DNA from: Mycolicibacterium mengxianglii
GTDB taxonomy: Bacteria > Actinomycetota > Actinomycetes > Mycobacteriales > Mycobacteriaceae
Direction of reading: 5' to 3'
DNA: 64,000 nt
NCBI RefSeq assembly: GCF_015710575.1
Contig: NZ_CP065373.1
Coordinates: forward strand, 186,001 to 250,000
In this document: positions 43,088-49,856 of the stretch, piece after piece
Layout: every line of letters starts with the position of its first letter
How positions within the stretch are numbered: the first letter of the stretch is position 1
Position numbers and translations under genes: made by a program
Notes under the pieces: generated by a model
The model's input: only the letters and a program-made list of their open reading frames with translations
The model's database searches: none
Told to the model about the DNA's origin: nothing

Positions 43088-43771
43088 TCAGCTCTGCGTG
43101 TGCCAACCCGCGACGCCGACGGCGATCATCCGCAGCTGTTTGATCGCCACCCGTTTGATCTCGTCCAGCGCGGTGGCATTCTGTGCCTCCTCGATCGCCT
43201 CGGCGATCGAGATCATGGCGTTGACGTAGAGGTTCGCCAGGATGTTGAGGTCCTCGGTACTCCAGTCGCTCAGGGCGGGAAAGCGTGCCAGGTCCGTGGT
43301 GAGCTCCGAGGTGATCAATCGGATTTCGGTGCGAATGGCGTAGCGCAGCACCGAAACCCCGCTGTTGCGCTCCCGGCCGATGAACAGCCAGTGTTCCCGA
43401 CGTTCGGCGACACCGGCGACCAGGATCTCCACCGAGGACTCGATGACGCGGTTGGGGTCGAGCTTGCCGGCGCGGGCCCCGCGCAACATGTCGCGCAACG
43501 AGCGGAATGACTCGTCGATCAGGACCAGCCCGAGTGCCTCCATGGACTCGAAGTGCCGGTAGAACGCCGTAGGCACGATCCCGGCCTCTTTGGTGACCTC
43601 GCGCAGGCTCAGTCCGCCGAAGCTGCGGTCTTCCAGCAGGCGTAGGGCGGCCGCGACGATGGCCCGCCGCGTCGCCTCTTTGCGCTCCACTCGGGTGACC
43701 GCTTCCTGCGCCGGGTCACGCGAGGACCGGCTGCGCCGCGAAGAACTCGGCTTCGGCGTACGACTGTTCAC
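43088..43771 (-). CDS. TetR-family regulator of fatty-acid desaturase genes
   Basis: 227 residues from GTG 43769-43771. A basic N-terminal tail (TPKPSSSRRSRSSRD) precedes the HTH RRAIVAAALRLLEDRSFGGLSLREVTKEAGIVPTAFYRHFESMEALGLVLIDE. This layout resembles FabR/DesT, regulators of unsaturated fatty acid synthesis. It is divergent from the reductase-desaturase pair, with an operator-like palindrome on top of its own start codon. Confidence 0.85.
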   Translation of the reverse strand: MNSRTPKPSSSRRSRSSRDPAQEAVTRVERKEATRRAIVAAALRLLEDRSFGGLSLREVTKEAGIVPTAFYRHFESMEALGLVLIDESFRSLRDMLRGARAGKLDPNRVIESSVEILVAGVAERREHWLFIGRERNSGVSVLRYAIRTEIRLITSELTTDLARFPALSDWSTEDLNILANLYVNAMISIAEAIEEAQNATALDEIKRVAIKQLRMIAVGVAGWHTQS

Positions 43772-43790
43772 TGTGTGAAATTTACCACAG
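43767..43790. promoter_or_regulatory. Palindromes between TetR and desaturase operon
   Basis: TTCAC-TGT-GTGAA (43767-43779) is a perfect 5-base inverted repeat; it overlaps a larger one with outer arms CTGTG (43771-43775) and CACAG (43786-43790) and inner AAATTT, 8 of 10 pairs matching. They cover the TetR start codon and lie 51-74 bases upstream of the reductase ATG, the expected position for a shared operator. Confidence 0.5.
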
Positions 43791-43840
43791 GATGCACAAA
43801 CCCCTTGACGAGCTGCGGCTTCGCCAAACACGGTGTACAC

Positions 43841-44893
43841 ATGTTCACTCAAATGCTGGTGCAGCGAGTGCTGGGTTCGCCTCTGGTCGACCTGCTCACC
43901 GGGCCGCACGGTGTGGACCGCTACACCGAGCTGTTACGGCCCACCTGGACCCTGGCCGAAGCCCGCGCCACGGTGCTCGACGTGCGCCGCGATACCGCCT
44001 CCGACGTCACGCTGATGCTGCAACCCAACGCCGCTTTCACCGGCTTCAAAGCCGGGCAGTACGTCACGGTGTCGGTGGAGGTCGACGGCCGCAGGCACAC
44101 CCGGTGCTACTCGCCGGCCAACGCCGAAGGCTCCGCATTGCTCGAACTGACGATCCGCCGACACGACCGCGGACGGGTGTCGGGGTATCTGTACGACCGC
44201 GCCGCGCCCGGACTGGTGTTGGGTCTCTCCGCCGCCCAGGGCGCCTTCGTACTGCCGACGCCGCGACCACGCCGGATTCTCTTCGTTGCCGGCGGCAGCG
44301 GCATCACGCCCATCGTGTCGATGCTGCGCACCTTGCGGGCCGAGGGCTTCACCGGGCAGGCGGCCGTCCTGCGGTATGCCCCCTCGGCCGTGGAGGCCGC
44401 GTACCGTCATGAGCTGCAGGGGCTGAATGTCACTGTGCTGCACGGGTTCACCCGGGACGCCCACGGGACCGACGTGGTGGGCCGCTTCGGTCCGGCGCAC
44501 CTCGCTTCGGCCATGGCCGACCCCGACGCCGTGTTTGTCTGCGGCCCACCGGGTCTGGTGGAGGCTGTCGGCGAACTGTGCCCGGGGACCCGTTCGGAGA
44601 GCTTCGTGCCCCCGGCGGCACTGGCGCCCATCGACACGGCGGGCGGACGCCTCAGGTTCACCGACAGCGCCGTCGAGGTCACCGACGACGGGCGCTCTCT
44701 CCTCGACCAGGCTGAGGCCGCAGGTCTGGCCCCCCAGTCCGGCTGCCGAATGGGCATCTGCCACACCTGCACCCGGCGCAAGACCCGCGGTGCCGTCCGC
44801 GACCTGACCACAGGCGCGGTGTCCGGGACCGAGGCCGAAGACGTCCAGATCTGTGTATCGGCACCTGTCGGCGACGTTGAAGTCGCCCTGTGA
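43841..44893 (+). CDS. Ferredoxin-type oxidoreductase, electron donor of DesA3 (Rv3230c-like)
   Basis: 350 residues from ATG 43841; a GTG at 43775 would run through the operator. FAD-binding RCYSPAN and GYLYDRAAPG, NAD-binding LFVAGGSGITPIVSML, and a C-terminal plant-type 2Fe-2S cluster (SGCRMGICHTC plus a last Cys in VQICVSAP). It moves electrons from NADPH to the diiron desaturase encoded next, 37 bases downstream. Confidence 0.88.
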   Translation: MFTQMLVQRVLGSPLVDLLTGPHGVDRYTELLRPTWTLAEARATVLDVRRDTASDVTLMLQPNAAFTGFKAGQYVTVSVEVDGRRHTRCYSPANAEGSALLELTIRRHDRGRVSGYLYDRAAPGLVLGLSAAQGAFVLPTPRPRRILFVAGGSGITPIVSMLRTLRAEGFTGQAAVLRYAPSAVEAAYRHELQGLNVTVLHGFTRDAHGTDVVGRFGPAHLASAMADPDAVFVCGPPGLVEAVGELCPGTRSESFVPPAALAPIDTAGGRLRFTDSAVEVTDDGRSLLDQAEAAGLAPQSGCRMGICHTCTRRKTRGAVRDLTTGAVSGTEAEDVQICVSAPVGDVEVAL

Positions 44894-44930
44894 ACCACCA
44901 ATGACCGCAATACCTTTGGAAGGAGCTGTC

Positions 44931-46034
44931 GTGTCACATCCCACGATCGATCTCACCCGCGAAGAGGCCGACGAGTTCGGCGCTGAGTTGGACGCCATCA
45001 AAGAACGGGTCATGTCGAGCCTCGGCGAGGCCGACGCCCAATACATCCGTCGTGTCATCAAGATCCAGCGTGCCCTCGAGGTGGGTGGACGCGGGCTGCT
45101 GTTCGCCGGAGCGCTGCCACCGTTCTGGCTGGCAGGCACCGCCATGCTGGGACTGTCGAAGATCCTCGACAACATGGAGATCGGCCACAACGTCATGCAC
45201 GGGCAGTACGACTGGATGGGCGATCCGGTGCTGTCCAGCAAGCAGTTCGAGTGGGACACCGCCTGCCCGGCTGACCAGTGGCGGCACTCGCACAACTACA
45301 TGCACCACACCCACACCAACATCGTCGGCATGGACCGCGATATCGGTTACGGCATCCTACGGATGAGCGAGGACCAGCGGTGGCACCCCTATTACCTGGG
45401 CAACCCCGTCTACGCCTTCCTGTTGATGGTGCTGTTCCAGTACGGGGTGGCCATGCACGAACTCGAGACCGAGCGCATCCGATCCGGAGAGATCTCGCTG
45501 GCCGACAAGCGGGAGGTCCTCGAGCAGATCTGGCAGAAGACGCGCAGGCAGGTGCTCAAGGATTACGTTGTCTTCCCCCTGCTGGCCGGACCCGCTGCGC
45601 CGCTGGTGTTCGCCGGCAACCTGTCGGCGAACCTGATCCGCAACATCTGGTCGTTCATGATCATCTTCTGCGGCCACTTCCCGGATGGCACCCAGGAGTT
45701 CTCCATCGCAGAAACCGCCGACGAATCCCGCGGACAGTGGTACTTCCGACAGGTGCTCGGCTCGGCCAACCTCACCGGAGGCGCGCTGTTCCACCTGCTG
45801 TCGGGCAACCTGTCCCACCAGATCGAGCACCACCTGTTCCCCGACATGCCCGCCCGGCACTACGCGACCATCGCCGGCGAGGTGGAGAAGATCTGTGAGC
45901 GGTACGGAATCCCGTACAACGCGGGGCCACTGCCCAGGCAGTTCGGCACCGTCGTCCGCAAAATCGTGAAGCTGGCGCTGCCGTCGAGAACCAAGTCGGG
46001 GAGCCGGCGACCCGCCCAAGCCCGGACCAGATGA
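44931..46034 (+). CDS. desA3: Membrane acyl-CoA delta-9 desaturase DesA3-like
   Basis: 367 residues from GTG 44931 with GGAAGGAG five bases upstream; ATG 44901 is possible but lacks a site. Three histidine boxes: GHNVMHG (86-90), HSHNYMHH (119-126) and HQIEHHLFP near 290, which hold the diiron centre. Hydrophobic hairpins lie between the boxes. It introduces a double bond into stearoyl-CoA. Gene order with the reductase matches Rv3230c-Rv3229c in M. tuberculosis. Confidence 0.87.
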   Translation: MSHPTIDLTREEADEFGAELDAIKERVMSSLGEADAQYIRRVIKIQRALEVGGRGLLFAGALPPFWLAGTAMLGLSKILDNMEIGHNVMHGQYDWMGDPVLSSKQFEWDTACPADQWRHSHNYMHHTHTNIVGMDRDIGYGILRMSEDQRWHPYYLGNPVYAFLLMVLFQYGVAMHELETERIRSGEISLADKREVLEQIWQKTRRQVLKDYVVFPLLAGPAAPLVFAGNLSANLIRNIWSFMIIFCGHFPDGTQEFSIAETADESRGQWYFRQVLGSANLTGGALFHLLSGNLSHQIEHHLFPDMPARHYATIAGEVEKICERYGIPYNAGPLPRQFGTVVRKIVKLALPSRTKSGSRRPAQARTR

Positions 46035-46106: not shown

Positions 46107-47957
46107 GTGACCGCTATGACACTGGCGTCTGACCGGACCATCCTCGCCGCCGCATCGGAAGCCGGCGGCGCCGCACTGGACCAGGTGCTCGGACTCTCGG
46201 TGGCCGCAGCGGTGGTCACCGTGGTGCTGCTGTGGATCGGATACCAGCACCGGGCCCGAAAAATCACCTGGCTGAACAACTTCGCCGAACGCATCGGCAC
46301 CAAGTTCAACCGCCCACCCTGGGTGGCGCTGCAGGTGTTCCTGTTCACCGGCACCATCATCTGCGCGCTGTTCGGCTTCATCTGGGATGTCAGCCTGCAC
46401 ATCGGCAAGGGCCGCGACTCGGGCCCGCTGGCCAATCCCGCGCACTACTTCATCTTGTTCGGACTGTTCCTGCTGTTCATCGCCGGCGCACTGGCGGTGG
46501 TGCTGCCGTACGACAAGCCCGGCTCGGCGGCGGTGCGGATCACCCGCACCTGGTTCGCCCCGGTCGGCGGTGTGTTGATGACCGCCTGCGGGTTGTACGC
46601 GCTGATCGGCTTTCCACTTGATGACGTCTGGCACCGCATCTTCGGTCAAGACGTCACGCTGTGGGGGCCGACGCACCTCATGCTGATCGGCGGTGCCGGG
46701 CTCTCGCTGATCGCCGTGCTGCTCCTGGAGTACGAGGGCCGACGGGCCATGGGACCCGACGCACCGCCGGACACCCGCTTCCTGAAATTCGTGCAGTACC
46801 TGTCGTTCGGTGGCCTGCTCATCGGGATGTCGGTCTACCAGATCGAATACGACTTCGGGGTGGAGCAGTTCCGGCTGGTGCTGCAACCGATGATGATCGC
46901 CGCTGCCGCCGCACTGGCGCTCGTCGCGGCGCGGCTGGTGCTGGGCCGCGGCGCCGCCATCGCCGCTGCCTTGATCGCGATCGTCCTGCGTGGCGCGGTC
47001 GCGGTGGTGGTCGGTCCGGTGCTGGGCGCCCCGATCAGCTGGTTCCCGCTGTACCTCGGCCCGGCGATCGTGGTGGAACTGCTCGCCCTCACCCCACTCA
47101 TCAAGCGGCACATTGCCTTCGGCGCGGTGAGCGGTGTGTTGATCGCGACGGCCGGGCTCTGGCTGGAGTCGTTCTGGATCGACGCGGTGTACCACTACCC
47201 GTGGCCGACCTCCATGTGGGGCGAGGCGTTGGCGATGGCGATCCCGGTGGCGGTGTTCATGGGGATCTGTGGCGCGCTGCTGGGGATGGTGCTCACCGGG
47301 GTCAAGCTGCCGCGACGCGCTGTCGGAATCACCTGCGTGGTCCTCACGGTCCTCGTCACCGCCGGCGCGGTGGCCAATGGGTTGCGTACCGAGGTGCCCG
47401 AGAACGCCACTGCCACAATCACCTTGACGGACCTGCCGAGCGAAAGCGGCCAGCGGATGGTTTCCGCGGACGTCAAGATCAACCCACCCGATCTGGTGAG
47501 CGACAACCCGGAATGGGTGGACATCCTGGCCTGGCAGGGCGGGCTGGACCACCAGCGCGGGATCGTCGTTGACCGCCTCGAGCAGGTGGGACCCGGGCAT
47601 TACCGCACGACGGTGCCCATCCCGGTCTGGGGCAGCTGGAAGACGCTGCTGCGGGTCCAGGACGGCACCACCATGGCCGGCGTCCCGATCTACCTGGCCG
47701 CCGACCCCGGCATCGGCGCACAAGAAGTGGCCGCCGAGTCCGCCACCCGCGATTTCGTCCCCGAGATCACGATCCTGCAGCGGGAGCGCAACTTCGACCA
47801 CCCGGCGTGGTTGTTCACCGCGGGGTCGATCGTGGTGTTGATCTGCACCCTGATCCTGATCGCCGCCCTGACGTGGGGCGCCGGCCGGATCAACGGCACA
47901 GAGCCGCATCCCGCGCGCCGGGAAGACGTCCGACCGCGAGTGTCACCCGGGGCATGA
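46107..47957 (+). CDS. Polytopic membrane protein with YtkA/FixH-like ectodomain
   Basis: 616 residues, GTG 46107 (ATG 46116 possible). About 12 helices fill residues 28-425; His and Trp residues recur at membrane borders (WDVSLHIGKG, DDVWHRIFGQ, GPTHLMLIGG, YHYPWPT). Residues ~430-570 are outside and contain LEQVGPGHYRTTVPIPVWGSWKTLLRVQDG, very like the YtkA/FixH fold, which is linked to copper and cytochrome assembly. A final helix and a short basic tail end the protein. No family name is known to me. First of four overlapping genes. Confidence 0.72.
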   Translation: MTAMTLASDRTILAAASEAGGAALDQVLGLSVAAAVVTVVLLWIGYQHRARKITWLNNFAERIGTKFNRPPWVALQVFLFTGTIICALFGFIWDVSLHIGKGRDSGPLANPAHYFILFGLFLLFIAGALAVVLPYDKPGSAAVRITRTWFAPVGGVLMTACGLYALIGFPLDDVWHRIFGQDVTLWGPTHLMLIGGAGLSLIAVLLLEYEGRRAMGPDAPPDTRFLKFVQYLSFGGLLIGMSVYQIEYDFGVEQFRLVLQPMMIAAAAALALVAARLVLGRGAAIAAALIAIVLRGAVAVVVGPVLGAPISWFPLYLGPAIVVELLALTPLIKRHIAFGAVSGVLIATAGLWLESFWIDAVYHYPWPTSMWGEALAMAIPVAVFMGICGALLGMVLTGVKLPRRAVGITCVVLTVLVTAGAVANGLRTEVPENATATITLTDLPSESGQRMVSADVKINPPDLVSDNPEWVDILAWQGGLDHQRGIVVDRLEQVGPGHYRTTVPIPVWGSWKTLLRVQDGTTMAGVPIYLAADPGIGAQEVAAESATRDFVPEITILQRERNFDHPAWLFTAGSIVVLICTLILIAALTWGAGRINGTEPHPARREDVRPRVSPGA

Positions 47958-48133
47958 CGGACCCGTCGAGCGTCGTCTACCTCGCAGACCACACTCTGCT
48001 GCTGGCCCTGCCCGCACTGATTCCGGCGGTGATCGTGGCTGCCGTGGTGATCGGCATAGCGGTCAGGGACCGGCGGCGCGGGGACGATGACGAGGAGACG
48101 GTGGCCTCGAGCGACGACGGTGAAGGAGTGTGA
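47954..48133 (+). CDS. Single-helix small membrane protein
   Basis: 59 residues, ATG 47954 overlapping the preceding TGA (ATGA) and ending in TGATG with the next start. One helix LLLALPALIPAVIVAAVVIGIAV, then RDRRRGDDDEET on the cytosolic side. Typical of a small accessory subunit in a membrane complex. Confidence 0.65.
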   Translation: MTDPSSVVYLADHTLLLALPALIPAVIVAAVVIGIAVRDRRRGDDDEETVASSDDGEGV

Positions 48134-48558
48134 TGATCGGGCGTCCATGGCTCGCCGCCGTCGGCTGTGCCGGGGTGCTGCTCGCCGGTTGCGGGTCACC
48201 CGAGGCCGACCCGGCGGCGTCCTCCAGTTCGGCGTCCTCGACTTCGGTGGCTCCTTCCCGTTCGGCTGCGGCGCAGCAACCTCCACCCAAGCAGCCGGAC
48301 CTGCAGGTCACCATCGCCGGCGGTCAGGTGACCCCGACCAACGCTGAGCTGGACGCCACCGTCGGAGCCCCCATCACCCTCGAGGTCACCAGCGACACCG
48401 AGGACGAACTGCACGTCCACGCAATTCCCGAGCACACCTTCACGATCCAGCCCGCGGCCGGGCAGCGGTTCGAATTCACCGCCGACGTGCCGGGACGGGT
48501 GGAGGTGGAGTTGCACGGGCTGCACCGGACAGTGGCAACCATCCAGGTGCGCCCGTGA
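48133..48558 (+). CDS. Cupredoxin-like lipoprotein
   Basis: 141 residues, GAAGGAG upstream. Signal peptide ending in lipobox VLLAGC, Ser/Ala/Pro-rich linker (about 40 residues), then a beta-sandwich LQVTIAGGQVTPTNAELDATVGAPITLEVTSDTEDELHVHAIPEHTFTIQPAAGQRFEFTADVPGRVEVELHGLH. His residues at HVH, EHTF and ELHGLH could bind copper, but the typical Cys ligand is absent. Its stop overlaps the next start. Confidence 0.72.
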   Translation: MIGRPWLAAVGCAGVLLAGCGSPEADPAASSSSASSTSVAPSRSAAAQQPPPKQPDLQVTIAGGQVTPTNAELDATVGAPITLEVTSDTEDELHVHAIPEHTFTIQPAAGQRFEFTADVPGRVEVELHGLHRTVATIQVRP

Positions 48559-49856
48559 CACCAGCCACGGTGCTCGCGCACGGGCTCGGTGGCTCGACAG
48601 ACCTCCCCATTCCGTACACGTACGCCCTGATCGGCGCGGCATGGGCGTTGACGCTCACCTTTGCGGTTGTCGCATTGGCCTGGCGCCGACCACGATTCGA
48701 CCCGGACAAACCGGGGCGCCCACTACCGGCAGGCGTGACGACGTTCATCGACGCCCGTGCCACCCGCTGGGTTGTCGCGCTGCTCGCACTGGCGTTCACC
48801 ATCTGGGTTCTCGTCGTCGCGGGCACGAGCACCCAGAGCGGACAGAACCCCCTGCCCGGGGTGTTCTATGTGCTGTTGTGGGTCGGGGTGCCAGTCATAT
48901 CGATGCTGTGCGGGCCGATCTGGCGTGCCATCTCACCGGTGCGGACATGGTGGCGGGCACTACCGGCTCGACTCGCCTCCGGGATCCTCACCTACCCCGA
49001 CAGCTGGGGATATCGGCCTGCGGCCGCAGGCCTGTTCGCCTTCGTGTGGCTGGAACTGGCCGGCCCCGATCCAGGATCACTGCCCGCGATCACGACGTGG
49101 CTGCTGGGCTACGCGGTGGTGATGGCCGCCGGTGCGGCGACATTCGGCCCGCGCTGGTTCGCCCGCGCCGACCCGTTCGAGGTGTACAGCGTGGTGGCCT
49201 CACGGCTGGCGCCGGTGCGACGTCGCGACGACGGGCGCATCATCGTCGGCAACCCGTTCGATCACCTGCCGACGATGCCGGTCCGGCCCGGCACTGTCAC
49301 GGTGCTGGCCGTGCTGCTGGGATCCACGGCCTTCGACAGCTTTTCGGCGATGCCCAGCTGGCGTGGCTTCGTCGACGCGCACAGCGGTGGCCAGGCGGGA
49401 GCCACGGTCTTGCGGACCGTCGGGCTGCTGGTGTTCATCGCGGTGGTCGCGACCACGTTCTGTATCGCAGCGAGGGCCACCGGCGGCGTGGACGCCGGGC
49501 AGCGCCGGCTGCTGCCGGGCCGGTTGGCGCACTCGCTCATCCCGATCGTCATCGGTTATGTGCTGGCGCACTACCTTTCGTATCTGGTCGAACGCGGCCA
49601 GCAGACGTTGCTCCTGCTCGGGGCTCCCCTGGGGTGGGACTGGGACATCAATTACCTGCTCTCACAACATCCGTCGGTCCTGGCGTCGATCAAAGTGGGA
49701 TGCGTGGTCCTCGGCCACATGGCCGGCGTACTGGCAGCACACGATGCGGCGCTGCGGCTGTTGCCGAAGGGCCATCAGCTCACCGGGCAGTTGGCGATGA
49801 TGCTGGTGATGGTGGGTTACACGTTCACCGGGCTGTATCTGCTATTCGGCGGCTGA
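48555..49856 (+). CDS. Polytopic membrane protein (HGLGGxxDLPIP family)
   Basis: 433 residues, GTG 48555. The outside N-terminus VLAHGLGGSTDLPIP is followed by about 10 helices. Related actinobacterial proteins are sometimes labelled fenitrothion hydrolase in databases; I recall this label but cannot confirm it, and no hydrolase motif is visible. Late His residues (AHYLSYL, GHMAGVLAAHDAAL) may bind a metal or haem. Last gene of the four-gene unit; overlaps the convergent TetR gene by 15 bases. Confidence 0.7.
   Translation: MTPATVLAHGLGGSTDLPIPYTYALIGAAWALTLTFAVVALAWRRPRFDPDKPGRPLPAGVTTFIDARATRWVVALLALAFTIWVLVVAGTSTQSGQNPLPGVFYVLLWVGVPVISMLCGPIWRAISPVRTWWRALPARLASGILTYPDSWGYRPAAAGLFAFVWLELAGPDPGSLPAITTWLLGYAVVMAAGAATFGPRWFARADPFEVYSVVASRLAPVRRRDDGRIIVGNPFDHLPTMPVRPGTVTVLAVLLGSTAFDSFSAMPSWRGFVDAHSGGQAGATVLRTVGLLVFIAVVATTFCIAARATGGVDAGQRRLLPGRLAHSLIPIVIGYVLAHYLSYLVERGQQTLLLLGAPLGWDWDINYLLSQHPSVLASIKVGCVVLGHMAGVLAAHDAALRLLPKGHQLTGQLAMMLVMVGYTFTGLYLLFGG

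Follow-up and report, generated by a model that had tools for sequence, protein, structure and literature searches.

The stretch of DNA analysed here, called the window throughout, comprises 64,000 nucleotides of Mycolicibacterium mengxianglii (GCF_015710575.1, NZ_CP065373.1, positions 186,001-250,000 of the forward strand). An initial annotation of the window had described a four-gene membrane/cupredoxin cluster, and the open reading frames (ORFs), overlaps and rough helix counts of the genes, here named g1 to g4, agreed with that description. The comparisons reported below point to a membrane system that is conserved, as yet without a name, and probably linked in evolution to the copper membrane monooxygenases (CuMMOs, encoded by xmoCAB). 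The four genes are the following:

g1, 46107..47957, + strand: polytopic membrane protein of 616 aa (613 if translation starts at the ATG at 46116), with 12-13 helices, a beta domain on the outside and a final helix (ORF and AF2 model).
g2, 47954..48133, + strand: small one-helix protein, ATGA overlap with g1 (ORF).
g3, 48130..48558, + strand: cupredoxin-like lipoprotein (ORF and Pfam scan).
g4, 48555..49856, + strand: membrane protein with about 10 helices (ORF).

Conservation was examined in the best 80 of 158 relatives that g1 found among the genome contigs of GTDB, and g1 to g4 were assigned there by profile searches. All four genes were present at 74 of the 80 loci. The four-gene order, whose conservation the initial annotation had offered as a check on the cluster, held in these related loci, as g1-g2-g3-g4 in 49 and as g2-g1-g3-g4, with g2 upstream of g1, in 25. 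A 4-nt overlap of g3 and g4 was found in 70 of the 74 loci with both genes, taking the starts nearest to the aligned position. Since the flanking genes vary from locus to locus, the conserved unit is the four-gene cluster itself. Only g3 was missing at five loci (four Gordonia and one Williamsia), where g2 is longer, at 71-90 aa. One Mycobacterium locus (1/80) held a solitary g1 without g2, g3 or g4, and in Mycobacterium genavense the g1 frame was apparently interrupted (93-aa ORF).

Neither g1 nor g4 gave a Pfam or NCBIfam match at E ≤ 1 or a PHROG match at E ≤ 0.1, their PDB sequence matches were only noise, and their distant relatives were likewise without a convincing family match. The AF2 model of g1 had a pLDDT of 89.4 and a pTM of 0.90. 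An invariance set of 35 aligned g1, 15 of them close and 20 distant, showed no variation at D94, H98, R103, D104, H113, D172, H176, D182 and H190, and these residues fall within two motifs; a broader alignment comprised 96 rows:

g1 motif 1, 46386..46445, + strand: residues 94-113 (D94, H98, R103, D104, H113), invariant in 35/35 sequences, and at the ligand positions in the 96-row alignment.
g1 motif 2, 46620..46676, + strand: residues 172-190 (D172, H176, P188, H190), invariant in 35/35 sequences, and at the ligand positions in the 96-row alignment.
g1 outer beta domain, 47388..47756, + strand: residues about 428-550, with a weakly FixH/CrdA-like fold (fold searches and AF2 model).

In a distant g1 (L149), for example, the motif strings read DVAWHIDLGRD..LFTPAH and FPLDELWHRAYGIDVTMWGPTH. 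Each motif is predicted by the model to form the end of a helix, a loop and the start of the next helix, and, judged by eye from the positively charged loops, both motifs and the C-terminal domain appear to face outside.

These two units resemble the copper sites of PmoC/AmoC, the C subunit of CuMMOs (Pfam PF04896). According to PMC12576850, the ligands in PmoC are Asp156, His160 and His173 for CuC and Asn227, His231 and His245 for CuD, with Arg165 nearby. In g1, D94/H98/H113 match the CuC ligands and R103 matches R165, with the same nine residues from D94 to R103 as from 156 to 165, while the gap between H98 and H113 exceeds its counterpart by one or two residues. D172/H176/H190 correspond to N227/H231/H245 in position and spacing, with Asp in place of Asn. 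Both families have in common two helix-loop-helix units, D-x3-H-x4-RD-...-H and [N/D]-x3-H-x11-P-x-H. The PmoC pattern is D..WH....RD...TP.H and NE..H...P.H, and the invariant positions of g1 follow in the same order with near-identical spacing. The PmoC of locus L163, with motif strings DGSWHQTAVRDTALTPAH and NEWGHSLWITEEIFAVPFH, has the two units 74 residues apart, compared with 78 in g1, and the helix-loop order around the ligands in the g1 model agrees with PmoC. L163, like L162 and L164, comes from one of three genomes of a single family in the phylum in which pmoC (PF04896) was found, followed by ORFs that look pmoA- and pmoB-like by eye. PmoC sequences were also gathered by scans of viral collections, the first of which returned no relative and the second and third the best 80 of 126 and the best 80 of 127 stretches.

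Profile comparison by hhalign was consistent with this resemblance. The 96-row g1 profile matched PmoC with E-values of 0.0037, 0.0035 and 0.0012 when 3 sequences, 16 sequences and 23 PmoC/AmoC sequences were used, respectively. Since the alignment spanned only motif 1 every time, motif 2 is added evidence. Among 70 profiles compared with the 23 PmoC/AmoC sequences, broad g1 profiles ranked first to third (E 0.0012, 0.0015 and 0.0027), and the best profile other than g1 reached 0.035; with the 16 PmoC sequences, two broad g1 profiles were still top-ranked. Reversed PmoC gave E-values of 0.5-0.8 with the g1 profiles. A pattern combining both motifs fitted 213 of 10,912 ORFs of at least 100 aa from the collected DNA (a set in which loci partly overlap and many frames are wrong), the second motif being PmoC-type (NEWGH) in 83 and g1-type (D..WH) in 130; as the pattern was designed after both families had been seen, this count shows specificity only.

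Beyond the two motifs, g1 departs from PmoC in having 12-13 helices in one chain of 616 aa and a fused outer domain. For the latter, the initial annotation had proposed a YtkA/FixH-like domain of copper type. A FixH/CrdA-like fold was indicated, although weakly, and the copper-type character gained no support, because residues 428-550 contain no invariant His, Cys or Met in the 96-row alignment. A PmoB-type cupredoxin with CuB histidines therefore has no counterpart in this domain, and the HVH motif of g3 sits on a separate protein. The possibility that g1 is a fusion of PmoC, PmoA and PmoB in one chain was set aside on the same ground, the lack of a CuB-type invariant His in the C-terminal domain. 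Unlike the beta domains of FixH/CcoH and CrdA, that of g1 shares its chain with a polytopic membrane part that has a metal motif of its own. In another explanation, which we consider improbable, the cluster would encode a complex with an accessory or assembly role in respiration, along the lines of FixH/CcoH, and the g1 metal motif would have arisen apart from PmoC.

The remaining proteins of the cluster also carry invariant histidines. In g2, H13 was invariant in 14/14 sequences. A small protein encoded after xmoB in M. chubuense NBB4 looked similar to g2 by eye, but it was rejected as a homologue since the g2 model was silent at E ≤ 10. The conserved positions of g3 and g4 are the following:

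g3 candidate copper ligands, 48412..48516, + strand: H95 and H97 (HVH), H102 and H129, invariant in 13/13 sequences.
g4 invariant histidines, 49569..49742, + strand: H339 (GYxxAHY), H388 and H396, in 26/26 sequences.

The match of g3 to Cupredoxin_1 (PF13473) was 14.6 bits, under the family cut-off of 27, and the CopC/CopD Pfam models gave no match at E ≤ 1 for g3 and g4 of the window, nor for six relatives of g4 and two of g3. The 26 g4 sequences span Actinomycetota, haloarchaea (Haloferax, Haloarcula) and an alphaproteobacterium (Sulfitobacter). Haloarchaeal g4 relatives (L254, L255) overlap with a preceding gene, whose small product has a single hydrophobic stretch and shows the pattern CxxC/HxxxxH. 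One g4 relative (P0085) is labelled 'fenitrothion hydrolase' in UniRef, which would make g4 an organophosphate hydrolase with unrelated neighbours. Some of the papers listed for this term mention a fenitrothion degrader, Burkholderia NF100. No experiment behind this label was met in the analysis, and the gene order, the metal genes found near g4 and its three invariant histidines speak otherwise, so that a hydrolase is very improbable.

The link to CuMMOs was also found outside g1. In a survey of 72,556 plasmids, g4 was detected by tblastn on 64 and PmoC on 10, and the comparison between the two sets covered 60 listed g4 plasmids. Four plasmids had both, and they were exactly the actinobacterial ones among the 10 PmoC plasmids: M. 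chubuense NBB4, M. dioxanotrophicus, Rhodococcus WAY2 and ZPP. All four carried the g3-g4 pair, confirmed by profile, about 1-9.5 kb from annotated methane/ammonia monooxygenase C, A and B genes, with a methanol dehydrogenase gene and transposases in between in Rhodococcus WAY2 and ZPP. Whereas the enzyme of these plasmid clusters is the three-gene xmoCAB, at the window locus g1 takes that place. By eye, HVH was present in g3 of all four plasmids and all four histidines in NBB4; H102 was missing in WAY2, ZPP and M. dioxanotrophicus, and H129 also in the last. In a tree of 39 g4 sequences, the CuMMO-linked g4 fell in two places. One set, from three plasmids, was nested in a 22-row group with 16 g1-linked g4 (support 100/100), and therefore g3-g4 must have kept company with both enzymes. 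Extended pmo/amo operons carry genes for the copper proteins CopC/CopD, PCu(A)C and PmoD, as described in PMC6189053, and g3-g4 on the CuMMO plasmids are placed like these. PmoD has the motif Cx7MxHxnC, which g3 does not have, since it contains no Cys past the signal/lipobox region.

Among seven other plasmid neighbourhoods of g4 examined, four had a metal gene nearby: CopC in M. gallinarum, PCu(A)C in Sulfitobacter and a heavy-metal P-type ATPase in Haloferax and Haloarcula. No gene clearly for copper was found in the neighbourhoods of M. rufum and Pseudonocardia, and on the M. vanbaalenii plasmid g1 adjoins CopC with g3-g4 about 8 kb off. The initial annotation had suggested metal handling or a respiratory or oxidase-like role; copper handling with an oxidase-like role gained support from the PmoC-type signatures in g1, the position of g3-g4 near CuMMO operons and this g1 beside CopC.

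The distribution of the genes was surveyed in 151 genomes of Mycobacteriaceae, the GTDB family of the window, and in 296 genomes drawn from across the phylum. In the family, g1 was present in 45 genomes (divergent in 5) and g4 in 49. All 45 genomes with g1 also had g4, at a distance of up to 3 kb in 44 of them, as counted from the coordinates. M. smegmatis has a g1 homologue (P0235), and g4 was seen in M. abscessus (P0113). Within the window's genus, one genome (G074) carried an additional group of g2, g3 and g4 (L114), and the 4.35 kb examined there did not include a g1. In another case, the genomes of one genus had two divergent g1 paralogues each (L245, L246, L250; G374, G358, G334), of which one lies some 2 kb away from g4 and the other elsewhere. 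Across the phylum, g1 was found in 35 genomes, g4 in 50 and both in 14, and the two were adjacent in a genome placed at class level (G214). We infer that g3-g4 is the wider pair and that g1 is tied to it within Mycobacteriaceae. The earlier proposal that the four proteins probably form one complex did not itself gain support. The gene linkage held in the family, and elsewhere g1 and g4 are mostly apart.

The same data bear on a second explanation, in which g1, g3 and g4 together have no catalytic role and instead acquire, store or pass on the copper that other cuproenzymes need, cytochrome oxidases for example. It would account for the neighbourhoods in which a g4 relative has a heavy-metal P-type ATPase, PCu(A)C or CopC nearby while the stretch examined contains neither CuMMO nor g1, for g3 adjoining g4 in 14 of 22 loci without g1 in the short flank examined, and for the invariant histidines of g3 and g4. 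However, the D/H/R/D charged cluster of g1 matches a site proposed to be catalytic in pMMO and is more than transport seems to require, and g3-g4 were repeatedly found near oxygenases. Acquisition or storage alone is therefore regarded as rather unlikely.

Several observations weigh against a relationship of g1 with the CuMMOs. The CuD Asn of PmoC is replaced by Asp in g1, and no xmoA or xmoB genes flank g1. A 15-row g1 profile (A1) reached only E 0.094 with 23 PmoC and 0.19 with 16, and the 40-row g1 family E 0.32 with 16, but 0.0027 and 0.01 with 23; throughout, the hhalign probability was at most 19% and the E-values are pairwise. Foldseek of g1 over PDB found nothing at E ≤ 0.001, and no PmoC was among the 50 matches listed there or among those listed by a VIA fold search. 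The six proteobacterial CuMMO plasmids were absent from the 60 g4 plasmids listed, and g4 was not found in two of three actinobacterial genomes with AmoC. Outside Mycobacteriaceae and G214, g1 was found in 27 genomes, g4 in 42 and both in 6, adjacent in none of these, several of which are drafts with the genes on separate contigs. Since about 4 such genomes would be expected by chance (27 × 42 / 288), there is no g1-g4 association outside the family. In addition, only 8 of the 66 test families were polytopic by a crude count, g1 being one of them. For this reason, PmoC columns were permuted within hydropathy classes, and for each of three g1 profiles none of 200 permutations reached the real score. 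Altogether, the profile and permutation tests favour common descent of g1 and PmoC, short of proof.

Common descent would not make g1 a CuMMO. PF04896 (AmoC) gave no match at E ≤ 1 for g1 or two distant g1, and none in the window's own genome, while a search with it was positive in 3 of the 296 genomes. Searches of that genome with PF02461 and PF04744 also gave no match, but their controls were silent too, so genome-wide absence does not follow. Since the locus has no xmoA/B, g1 has no AmoC match and its C-terminal domain lacks a conserved His, g1 is not a CuMMO member.

The surroundings of the cluster offered little guidance to a substrate. The flanks scanned at the window locus contain two genes for TetR regulators besides those for a reductase and a desaturase. 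Immediately upstream of g1 (43088-46034), a fatty acid desaturase gene and one resembling a ferredoxin reductase are divergent from the gene of a TetR regulator, which scored 123 bits with the FabR model, under its cut-off of 151. This desaturase/reductase pair had no counterpart adjoining g1 in the remaining loci. At some loci bioB, a nicotinamidase-like gene, glgX and others recurred, with no common theme, and the neighbours were discarded as a clue. MerR-family-like regulators on the opposite strand adjoin several distant g1 (L150, L151, L157, L158).

On balance, we lean towards g1 being a copper membrane protein distantly related to PmoC/AmoC that may be an oxidising enzyme, with copper supplied by g3 and g4. 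Copper would probably be bound at the outer face of g1 between four helices, by D94/H98/H113 and D172/H176/H190 with R103 nearby, and g1 would probably use it for oxidation. The outer lipoprotein g3 may capture copper and hand it to g4, whose intramembrane His site would pass it to g1, and g2 may be a small structural or assembly subunit. A more specific version of the PmoC-related reading is possible, though doubtful: g1 might be a single-chain copper membrane oxygenase, a pared-down relative of methane/ammonia monooxygenase in which the copper site of PmoC alone survives. It would be widespread among mycobacteria and related bacteria and would have a dedicated g3-g4 supply pair that has been swapped between it and true CuMMOs.

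The g1 family was undescribed in the titles and abstract openings found on PmoC homologues in Mycobacterium, PmoC-like proteins and CuMMO clusters with cupredoxins, a search outside which subscription journals mostly lie. The site of substrate oxidation in CuMMOs is disputed, and studies favouring the CuD site of PmoC are reported in PMC12576850. If the proposed relationship is true, a natural protein with that site but no PmoA or PmoB alongside would be a test of what the site can do by itself. The relationship would also point to g3-g4 as suppliers of copper to the actinobacterial CuMMOs and add an unrecognised copper protein to mycobacteria, including M. smegmatis.

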